Both the position numbers and the translations under genes were made by a program. A DNA stretch of 64,000 bases from an uncultured Paracoccaceae bacterium (GTDB taxonomy: Bacteria; Pseudomonadota; Alphaproteobacteria; Rhodobacterales; Rhodobacteraceae): NCBI GenBank assembly GCA_947501355.1, contig CANMVA010000002.1, positions 62,001-126,000 on the forward strand. The letters run 5' to 3'. The notes under the pieces were generated by a model. The model saw nothing but the letters and a program-made list of their open reading frames with translations. It made no database searches and was not told the origin of the DNA. Below are positions 28,924 through 52,504 of the stretch, piece by piece. Within the stretch, counting starts at the first letter, position 1. Every line of letters starts with the position of its first letter.

Positions 28924-30465
28924 CTAGCTCGCAGGCAAATGGATGGTGAAGCGCTCGCGAATGGCGAGGTCAAGGTCAGGTGCCAGCCGCGCCCGACTGC
29001 CTTGCGCGAGGATTTCGTTCATCTTCGCCGTGGCGTTTTCCAGAAGATCAGGCCGCCCCATTTCTTCCCATTCCTTGGGGGAGGATCGGTCGGCTGTGGC
29101 GGGATAAACGTATTCGGTCTGCATCAGCCGAAGGGTCTGGTCACTGCCCAGATAATGGCCCGGCCCACCCACGCATGTCGCCGCCATCGTCTCAAGGCTG
29201 AGCGTGTCGTCATTCACTTCGATGCCGCGAATGCAGCGCAAAGCCTGCCCAAGAAGATCGTCCCCAAGCACCAGAGATTGCTGGCAAAATCCCAGAAGGG
29301 AGGCATGCATCCCCGCCGCCTCATAGACCATATTGAGCCCGGAGAGACCGGCCATCACGTTCGACATGGCCTGCTCCCAACCCGCCTGCATGTCGGGCAG
29401 TTTGGCATCGGCGATGCCAGCCGCGGCACCGCAGGGCAGGCCGTAAAACCGGCCCATCTGCGCGCAGCCCGCCGTCAGCAATGCCTGCTCGCCTGAGCCG
29501 CCCGACATCGCCCCTGTGCGCAGATCGCTGACAAAGGGCCATGTCCCGAACACCGCCGGATGGCCCGGCGCAATCGCGTTCACATAAACGACACCGGCCA
29601 GACATTCAGCCACAGCCTGTACAATCGCGCCGGCAATCGGCGCAGGCGCCGTTGCCCCCGCCTGCCCTGCTGACAAGAGCAGAACCGGCATCCCGCCCCG
29701 GATCATCGCCTCCATGGTTTCGCAGGATTCGGTGGCGAATTTCATCGGCGGGACAACAAAACAGTTGGAGTTCAGCACGAAGGGTCGCGCGCGCCATGCT
29801 TCCTCTGAGCCTGCGATCATGTGCAAAAGCTCAAGGATGTCGTCGCAGAAATCCGGTTCGGAAATCGAGGTGCCGATATGTTTCGTGGTGCCGCTGACAC
29901 AGGCATAGATCGTGTTCAGATCCATCTCGCGATTGTCCGCGATATCCCGCGCCACCATGGGGCGCTGCAAAAAGTGGACGTTGTCTAACCGATCGACCAG
30001 ACAGGCGGCCTCATAGAGGTCCTGCAAGGTGCTCTCGCGATAGCTGCCAGTGACAGGATCGGCGATATGCACGGCCGCCCCTGCGGTGCCGAAATGGACC
30101 TTGGCACCGCTGAGATGCAGATCATGCCGTGGATCACGCGCCCATAAGGTCAGATCCTTGGCGGCCACCGCCAGCATGTCCTCAACCAACGCGCGGGGAT
30201 ACCGCAAGCGGCCATCCTCGCCCAGAATTGCACCGGCCTTGGTCATCACATCGACACCGCTTTGCGGCGCGTCCGCCAGACCGATGGTCTCAAGTGCTGT
30301 GAGCGCCGCTTCGTGAATGCGCGCGATATCGGCCTCGCTCAGAGGGTTATACGTGCCCCCTTCGAGGCCTGCGCGCACCGGGCGCACATCTTCGGTAAGC
30401 GGAGCGGCACGCAACGCTTTGCGGGCGGCGCGACCTCCGGAACGGCGGGGTTTCAACTGGTTCAT
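28924..30465 (-). CDS. mttB: MttB-superfamily (trimethylamine/glycine-betaine-type) methyltransferase, non-pyrrolysine
   Basis: A 513-residue methyltransferase (MNQLKPRRSGGRAARK start). It has YRESTLQDLYEAACLVDRLDN, KHIGTSISEPDF, GGMPVLLLSAGQAGATAPAP, and VYVNAIAPGHPAVFGTWPF, typical of MttB TIM barrels. There is no in-frame amber codon, so it is of the non-Pyl class acting on quaternary amines such as glycine betaine, usually giving the methyl to a corrinoid protein. The ATG at 30465 lies 6 nt after AAAGGA, which is the 3' arm of a hairpin. A leader-peptide gene precedes it. No corrinoid partner is in the window. Confidence 0.88.
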   Translation of the reverse strand: MNQLKPRRSGGRAARKALRAAPLTEDVRPVRAGLEGGTYNPLSEADIARIHEAALTALETIGLADAPQSGVDVMTKAGAILGEDGRLRYPRALVEDMLAVAAKDLTLWARDPRHDLHLSGAKVHFGTAGAAVHIADPVTGSYRESTLQDLYEAACLVDRLDNVHFLQRPMVARDIADNREMDLNTIYACVSGTTKHIGTSISEPDFCDDILELLHMIAGSEEAWRARPFVLNSNCFVVPPMKFATESCETMEAMIRGGMPVLLLSAGQAGATAPAPIAGAIVQAVAECLAGVVYVNAIAPGHPAVFGTWPFVSDLRTGAMSGGSGEQALLTAGCAQMGRFYGLPCGAAAGIADAKLPDMQAGWEQAMSNVMAGLSGLNMVYEAAGMHASLLGFCQQSLVLGDDLLGQALRCIRGIEVNDDTLSLETMAATCVGGPGHYLGSDQTLRLMQTEYVYPATADRSSPKEWEEMGRPDLLENATAKMNEILAQGSRARLAPDLDLAIRERFTIHLPAS

Positions 30466-30474
30466 GTCTTGCAT

Positions 30475-30512
30475 CCTTTGATCTGAGAGAGGGGGAAGGG
30501 TCAGATCAAAGG
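30475..30512 (-). promoter_or_regulatory. 12-bp hairpin sequestering the mttB ribosome-binding site
   Basis: On the plus strand CCTTTGATCTGA (30475-30486) and TCAGATCAAAGG (30501-30512) are perfect inverted copies with a 14-nt spacer. In the mRNA the 3' arm contains the AAAGG Shine-Dalgarno of mttB, while the 5' arm contains the last codons and TGA of a 28-codon leader frame. Ribosomes terminating there should open the helix, giving translation-coupled control. Confidence 0.65.
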
Positions 30513-30587
30513 GGCCCCGCGCGCGGCGCGGCCACGTTGCGCACCAATGGTGCGGATGGTCAGTATAAGACGCCAAAAGATGTGCAT
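30501..30587 (-). CDS. 28-residue leader peptide upstream of mttB
   Basis: ATG at 30587 follows a near-ideal GGGAGGA site at 8 nt. The peptide begins MHIFWRLILTIRTIGAQRG, then Arg/Ala-rich, ending in GAPLI. Its stop codon lies in the 5' arm of the hairpin that blocks the mttB ribosome site, 36 nt before the mttB ATG. This arrangement supports a regulatory leader ORF rather than an ordinary small gene. It is too short to be judged by domain comparison. Confidence 0.6.
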   Translation of the reverse strand: MHIFWRLILTIRTIGAQRGRAARGAPLI

Positions 30588-30621
30588 GGCGGTCCTCCCA
30601 CTTGTTAGGATGCCACGAAAG

Positions 30622-30648
30622 ACGACACGCGCACGTCTAAATGCGACA
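30622..30648 (-). promoter_or_regulatory. TGTCGC-type direct repeats upstream of the mttB leader
   Basis: On the minus strand TGTCGC (30648-30643) and TGTCGT (30627-30622) repeat in the same orientation with a 21-nt period. A 21-nt-periodic TGTCGC half-site is known for ArgR/GbdR-type AraC-family regulators, which control arginine and glycine betaine catabolism. The match is short, so this is a hypothesis. Confidence 0.35.
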
Positions 30649-30674
30649 GAGCGTCGTTTTCAGCCTGTGCGCCC

Positions 30675-52454: not shown

Positions 52455-52504
52455 GCAAATTTGCAAAATTCGCAAAGTCTGAATGCCTATAATTGCAAAT
52501 TTGC
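52455..52504. promoter_or_regulatory. PccR-type operator cluster between pccB and the MFS gene
   Basis: Two perfect GCAAATTTGC palindromes occur at 52455-52464 and 52495-52504. The first is followed directly by TTCGCAAA (52469-52476), giving paired TTTGCAAA-like boxes known for ScfR/PccR regulators. They lie in the divergent promoter of pccB and the MFS gene. Confidence 0.7.

Follow-up and report, generated by a model that had tools for sequence, protein, structure and literature searches.

A conserved leader peptide upstream of mttB in Rhodobacteraceae and its predicted action through ribosome arrest

The studied locus lies in a stretch of 64,000 nucleotides, hereafter the window, and its features listed below are all on the minus strand. 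Its main gene belongs to the mttB family and is presumed to be the regulated gene. A class-II aminoacyl-tRNA synthetase gene, taken as proS on account of its Pfam domains (tRNA-synt_2b and HGTP_anticodon), is located upstream of mttB, and genes for an FtsX-type permease and an ABC ATPase are located downstream. Between the synthetase gene and mttB sits a short frame, the leader, which starts with an ATG at 30587 and ends with a TGA stop at 30503-30501. The features of the region are as follows:

28924-30465, minus strand: mttB-family gene, 513 aa (PF06253, 375.9 bits)
30474-30479, minus strand: mttB Shine-Dalgarno AAAGGA (mttB ATG at 30465)
30475-30486, minus strand: hairpin 3' arm TCAGATCAAAGG, including AAAGG of the mttB Shine-Dalgarno
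30487-30500, minus strand: C-rich loop CCCTTCCCCCTCTC, 14 nt
30501-30512, minus strand: hairpin 5' arm CCTTTGATCTGA, formed by the Pro26, Leu27, Ile28, and stop codons; seen in the sequence and in family-wide complementarity past the Pro codon
30501-30587, minus strand: leader ORF MHIFWRLILTIRTIGAQRGRAARGAPLI*, 28 aa by translation, with homologues preceding mttB
30510-30521, minus strand: RGAP codons, a SecM/RAPP-like end by motif alignment with published arrest motifs; putative arrest site
30510-30554, minus strand: conserved 15-residue core R12-P26 RTIGAQRGRAARGAP, 8 residues of which are invariant in 105/105 leaders
30593-30599, minus strand: leader Shine-Dalgarno GGGAGGA
30644-30656, minus strand: dyad CGAC-N5-GTCG upstream of the leader, candidate promoter or operator element

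The solved structures nearest to the window MttB by sequence are 2qne (putative methyltransferase, 8.2e-59) and 9yce (glycine betaine methyltransferase, 8.4e-59), and the protein is 93% identical to MttB of Cognatishimia sp. MH4019, of which the source of the window is a relative. Since 9yce is among the nearest solved relatives and two pfam06253 proteins of Ruegeria pomeroyi, neither of them linked to the window gene, increase on glycine betaine (PMC12478193), the product is probably a vitamin-B12-linked glycine-betaine:corrinoid methyltransferase of the mtgB type. The genome from which the window was taken contains four MTTB-family genes, and the leader profile described below matches it at one place, before the window gene. 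A search of the whole window with Rfam at gathering scores yielded a single match, PYLIS_3 (pyrrolysine insertion sequence mttB), inside mttB at 29316-29414 (minus strand, 46.1 bits); no stop interrupts the mttB frame, and the match probably reflects coding similarity only. The N-terminus of the window MttB, RSGGRAARKALRAAPL, and the leader core have the pentamer GRAAR in common, by chance or by kinship. Two A/T-rich inverted repeats, one of the CAAAACTTT..AAAGTTTTG type and the other CAGAGTTTTCTGAAAACTCTG, follow the synthetase gene at 30718-30675 (minus strand), with near-copies in locus L006.

The original prediction placed here a 28-codon leader with a near-perfect Shine-Dalgarno and a perfect 12-bp hairpin, the leader ending inside the 5' arm and the mttB Shine-Dalgarno lying in the 3' arm, and this description of the window proved accurate. 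GGGAGGA (30599-30593) precedes the ATG, the encoded peptide is conserved, the leader stop makes up the final three bases of the 5' arm, and AAAGG of AAAGGA lies inside the 3' arm. Neither Pfam nor NCBIfam matched the window leader peptide; that the frame is not a chance ORF follows from conservation of the peptide across the family. Inverted repeats of 12 bp without a mismatch and with loops of 3-30 nt occur only twice in the 64 kb of the window, whereas 20 2-mer shuffles averaged 0.1 (maximum 2); the second of them, with a loop of at most 30 nt, is at 52455-52504. The 201-nt fold around the hairpin has z = -2.19, with 6/200 shuffles folding equally well.

The distribution of the leader was studied at mttB loci and in whole genomes. 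A locus was considered leader-bearing if at least 10 of the 13 fixed core residues were found close upstream, and the best 80 of 583 relatives were taken together with two genus members (81 loci examined, MH4019 being counted once). The frame, whose conservation in relatives the original prediction had proposed as a check, is present at 54 of the 81 examined loci and absent at 27. A profile built from 38 leaders was searched in 198 genomes of the family and at E <= 0.01 gave matches in 85 of them; 68 of the 92 places were kept as clear. Four of the 24 places dropped had lower E-values than the weakest one kept, these being 13-residue matches inside frames of 856-903 aa. By coordinates, 66 of the 68 kept places lie before a same-strand mttB orthologue, with 38-113 nt between the two matches, and tblastn shows the other two to precede mttB as well, in each case one whose frame looks broken. 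In these two loci (L112 and L116) mttB is found behind the leader as two tblastn pieces, which may reflect a sequencing error or a decaying gene. Order-wide, matches at E <= 1e-6 were observed in 127/292 genomes, one per genome, and a class-wide draw contained matches in 4/385 genomes, all of them from the window's own family. The leader is a conserved peptide family of many members of one mostly marine bacterial family.

In the 198 genomes, 48 of the 114 mttB orthologues are without a kept leader (at least one of them, in G024, starts at a contig end; four second matches with 47-51% identity were excluded from the orthologue matches), and thus the leader is dispensable in some lineages. At 19 of the 27 leaderless loci, mttB starts within 175 nt of a preceding same-strand gene. 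Seventeen of these 19 genes have a similar C-terminus, exemplified in L040 by an FAD oxidoreductase fused to a GCV_T domain, and two correspond to a 276-aa gene that is PEP_mutase-like in L092. Seven leaderless loci have no close same-strand neighbor, and one more (L028) has almost no upstream sequence. At leader-bearing loci (row L007 excluded), no same-strand ORF of at least 150 aa ends less than 205 nt from the mttB match. A quickly built tree with 82 MttB rows groups 24 of the 26 rows labelled as leaderless and requires 3 changes versus 22.1 in shuffles, which we read as inheritance of the leader with a stand-alone mttB and a few losses.

These data bear on the suggestion that the leader is a trans-acting conserved microprotein, acting for instance on MttB or a corrinoid partner and merely co-transcribed with mttB. 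Extreme conservation of the peptide and the repetition of GRAAR at the MttB N-terminus favor this, but all 68 kept places directly precede mttB, and the leader is not seen upstream of those mttB genes that closely follow another gene (19 of the 27 leaderless loci). The lack of conservation after Pro and the attachment of a helix to the Pro codon, both characterized below, also argue against a microprotein, and we regard it as improbable.

Conservation within the leader was analyzed for 123 leader-bearing loci. Removal of 8 loci without a recognised mttB motif or start and of 6 exact duplicates gave 109 rows, and the exclusion of four rows with long tails (L035, L087, L154, and L158) from the structure and codon counts gave 105, made up of 51 from the window and from named or genus loci and 54 from other genomes. 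The consensus of the core is RTIGAxRGRAARGxP, where G4, A5, R7, G8, A10, R12, G13, and P15 are invariant in 105/105 non-identical leaders. The third codon positions of these eight residues are near random, with pairwise identities of 0.26-0.34 over the 105 leaders, whereas R1, T2, and I3 are slightly variable, with third positions that vary less freely (0.50-0.60). In the codon directly after Pro, identity falls to 0.25-0.32 at each of the three positions in the 105 leaders, which is the background level. Selection acts on the peptide and ends abruptly at Pro.

The tail after Pro contains 0 residues in 24/109 leaders, 3 residues in 45/109, and other numbers in the rest; it amounts to 0-8 unconserved residues in 105 of the 109 and is long in 4, and 3/109 frames overlap the mttB start as assigned in this analysis. 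The position of the stop relative to Pro, which the original prediction had also proposed to check, differs among the leaders. Upstream of the core, the mainly hydrophobic positions -5, -3, and -2 are partly retained, and the leader start is found 12 codons before the core in 79/105 rows and 11 codons before it in 10/105. The leader Shine-Dalgarno matches at 5 or 6 of 6 bases in 51/105 rows, with the start picked partly by the same score. The 11 residues that precede the core were judged by eye to be too short for an N-terminal export or membrane signal. A fixed length and a fixed core followed by a free tail past Pro are expected of an elongation-arrest peptide, whereas a free-standing protein needs none of these. 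A hairpin in the RTIGA codons, considered separately, retains 5 or 6 of its 6 pairs in 44/105 rows and was put down to codon choice.

The same alignment is informative about two mechanisms that would operate without arrest by the peptide. Plain translational coupling, in which any translated uORF ending at this place opens the mttB start whatever its sequence, agrees with the short distance between the leader and mttB and with the helix at the frame end, but it leaves both the 15 conserved residues and the end of conservation at Pro unexplained, and is very unlikely. Codon-based attenuation, in which slow decoding of Arg (or Pro) decides between a terminator and an antiterminator, could draw on the five Arg codons and one Pro codon of the window leader, and a cysS leader of Rhodobacterales with tandem Cys codons has been proposed to operate like this (PMC8632094, in part). 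Against it, the choice of synonymous codon is free at the conserved Arg, Gly, and Pro positions, core Arg codons 7 and 12 included; invariance is no greater for Arg than for Gly and Ala; no terminator-like site is found in the window between 30380 and 30800; and T-runs of at least 5 occur in only 5/105 spacers. Attenuation is accordingly the least credible of the alternatives, being extremely unlikely, and was rejected on account of the free synonymous codons and the missing terminator; an intrinsic terminator is not supported. The Arg-rich leader had been proposed to sense either a nascent-peptide or a codon signal; dependence on the peptide sequence is retained, and the codon signal is contradicted by the synonymous changes at Arg codons 7 and 12.

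The core ends in RGRP in 80/105 leaders, RGAP in 13/105, RGGP in 6/105, and RGSP in 6/105, with Arg always three residues before Pro. The family thus matches R-[A/G]-x-P, where Arg is at -3 from an A-site Pro, and exact RAPP, RGPP, RAGP, or RAPG ends were found in 0/105 leaders. In the SecM/RAPP structures, as described in parts of PMC10951299 and PMC10951233, Arg occupies a pocket of the 23S rRNA; the second residue, through its backbone carbonyl, binds the nitrogen of the A-site Pro and so blocks bond formation. RGPP produces the most stable arrest reported among such ends, and an arrest motif alone is insufficient, as the preceding residues matter (both from excerpts of PMC12992588); the RG-x-P motif is thus a pointer to arrest and not a proof of it. 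Of the leader ends found, only RGSP (6/105) appears in the part of PMC10987492 that lists ends shown to stall, as the end of a SecM with experimentally shown stalling. RGRP and RGAP are absent from PMC12992588, and RGRP is absent from PMC10987492.

Pairing between the leader end and the spacer was assessed by comparing nine bases at a set distance from the Pro codon with their own spacer and with spacers of other genomes. The excess of complementarity peaks at Pro+3 to +11 (z -10.7, n=105), corresponding to an arm at about Pro+0 to +11 nt, and is lost from Pro+9 onward, where a deficit follows. Windows within the core display a weaker excess (z about -3.5 at -12 and -6). In non-redundant rows with GC-matched swaps, the excess persists at z -9.2 (101 rows, 0/2000 permutations). 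The partner bases are in excess at -40 to -11 of the mttB start, and those at -10 to +14 are at or below control. Uninterrupted stems of -9 kcal/mol or better that touch the stop region are present in 31/105 rows versus 10.4 in swaps, and the arm is paired with a probability above 0.5 in 62/105 rows versus 36.8.

The distance of the arm from Pro is equal in leaders with a tail of 0 residues (z -4.9, n=24) and in those with a tail of 3 (z -6.1, n=45), for which reason the anchor looks like the arrest site and not the stop. The stop codon as an anchor was rejected on account of this split and of the long tails in 4/109 rows. The helix is divergent in sequence but self-complementary, and it starts at the conserved Pro. 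The original prediction had the leader stop melting the hairpin; its tie between the helix and the leader end stands, with the conserved Pro taking the place of the stop. The mRNA structure is placed where a stalled ribosome would alter it.

Masking of the mttB Shine-Dalgarno, the second part of that prediction, is clear in the window and in MH4019, where the 3' arm takes in AAAGG. In the window fold, the unpaired share of the mttB Shine-Dalgarno is 0.34 and becomes 0.58 once the leader end is covered. L007, the third genus member, has compensated changes in the helix and a 3' arm ending just before AGGAG; the full fold nonetheless pairs the mttB Shine-Dalgarno (unpaired 0.08, rising to 0.49 with the leader covered). 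Across the family, masking was tested in three ways and is weak. Stalling gives a gain in the unpaired share of the Shine-Dalgarno of 0.017 versus 0.025 in swaps, a ribosome at the stop gives 0.063 versus 0.047, and for the wider initiation region the gain is 0.126 versus 0.097 (z 2.7). Hiding of the mttB ribosome site by the hairpin therefore holds for the window and MH4019 and is weak across the family.

Given this weak family-wide masking, we keep translational opening as the first reading for the window, with the shielding of a Rho site as an alternative. According to the latter, which presupposes the same arrest and in this respect overlaps with the preferred explanation, the arrested ribosome covers a C-rich Rho-loading stretch and thereby prevents Rho-dependent termination, as in the readout of TnaC. 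The weak masking itself counts in its favor, as does the composition of the leader-mttB spacers (37% C and 14% G, versus 31 and 28% in 352 control spacers, a rough contrast because the controls derive from mechanical ORFs); a C-over-G surplus of at least 7 in 20 nt is found in 49% of the spacers versus 19% of the controls. On the other hand, a Rho mechanism has no need of a Pro-anchored helix, and a spacer of 28-80 nt (105 rows) is short for a Rho site. We consider this readout rather unlikely, although more credible than the other alternatives discussed here.

Upstream of the leader, a CGAC-N3-8-GTCG dyad is found within 120 nt in 48/104 rows versus 2.3% of shuffles. A box resembling GTCGCAAACAGGACAGAC matches at 12 or more of 18 positions in 81/104 rows versus 3.8% of shuffles, often 60-70 nt before the leader start, and is weak in the window (9/18). 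The dyad and the box are possibly a shared promoter or operator.

Taken as a whole, we consider it probable that the leader is a regulatory ribosome-arrest peptide using SecM/RAPP chemistry, for which the conserved peptide and its end motif predict a stall at Ala25/Pro26 that would open the hairpin before mttB. On completion of the core, the chain ...RTIGAQRGRAARG-A would lie in the exit tunnel with Arg23-Gly24 beside the peptidyl-transferase center. Ala25 would be carried by the P-site tRNA and Pro26 by the A-site tRNA, and the motif, together with the published structures, suggests that the bond to Pro would fail or form slowly. With Pro in the A site, the usual footprint of the ribosome extends about 10 nt beyond that codon. 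An arrested ribosome would cover the Pro codon and about 10 nt, i.e., the 5' arm of the hairpin, and would keep the hairpin open. If no arrest occurred, termination would usually take place 0-8 codons later, the ribosome would depart, and the hairpin would close. Once closed, the hairpin would cover the mttB Shine-Dalgarno or lie immediately before it and would be expected to lower mttB expression.

At the predicted stall the chain is 25-26 residues long and would be wholly enclosed in the tunnel, which points to a small molecule or the state of the tunnel as the effector rather than to an export force. Our guess is that the signal is a metabolite of the pathway, such as glycine betaine, dimethylglycine, or a signal from the methionine/SAM side. 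More tentatively, we suggest as a possibility that a cytosolic peptide sensor of about 30 residues, enclosed in the tunnel, uses an RG-x-P variant of SecM/RAPP arrest to detect a one-carbon metabolite or quaternary amine (glycine betaine or one of its demethylation products) and so controls the B12-dependent glycine-betaine methyltransferase of Rhodobacteraceae.

TnaC, the short leader of the E. coli tna operon, ends exactly at a Pro-stop. The mttB leader resembles it in being a short leader, and arrest on TnaC is metabolite-dependent and occurs before a catabolic operon, but TnaC is read out by Rho (PMC9973294, in part), whereas the present leader usually has 0-8 residues past Pro and an anchored helix. 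In the literature searched, which included no preprints and few subscription articles, four stretches of the consensus leader peptide did not occur, nor did RGRP together with nascent-peptide arrest. The matches listed for mttB, betaine, or order names included no description of such a leader or arrest, and in a paper on mtgB the word "leader" is absent and the passages containing "regulat" do not concern mtgB control.

Several other systems share individual properties with the leader, as far as the excerpted articles describe them. CutF-cutO of Rhodobacter capsulatus, a member of the same taxonomic order, combines an upstream ORF that has a proline-rich end with a stem-loop over the downstream Shine-Dalgarno, but CutF is an exported copper sensor whose proline-rich end alone gave no stall in the authors' test (PMC9973294). 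The conserved uORFC-8-2 before cysS likewise belongs to this order, Rhodobacterales; the mechanism proposed for it, in contrast, relies on tandem Cys codons and a terminator, neither of which is seen here (PMC8632094). SecM, which ends in RAGP, has an essential A-site Pro with Arg at -3, a small residue directly after that Arg, and a regulated downstream gene, as the leader is proposed to have. Unlike the 28-aa leader, which is predicted to be wholly in the tunnel, SecM is exported and its stall is relieved by pulling on the N-terminus (PMC10951299 for both points). Further parallels in the motif are ApdA, ApdP, and the RQH family, where R-[A/G]-x-P is found near the C-terminus of a small upstream ORF, although the described RAPP/RGPP peptides tend to be small secretory or membrane proteins (PMC10951233, PMC10987492, PMC12992588). 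Arrest leaders are known as a kind; the novelty appears to lie in the variant of the motif, in the short cytosolic form, and in the pathway that is targeted. If the proposed arrest is true, the leader would be a testable sensor for the glycine-betaine pathway, and SecM/RAPP arrest would extend to a short cytosolic, probably metabolite-sensing leader with a new end motif, RG-x-P.
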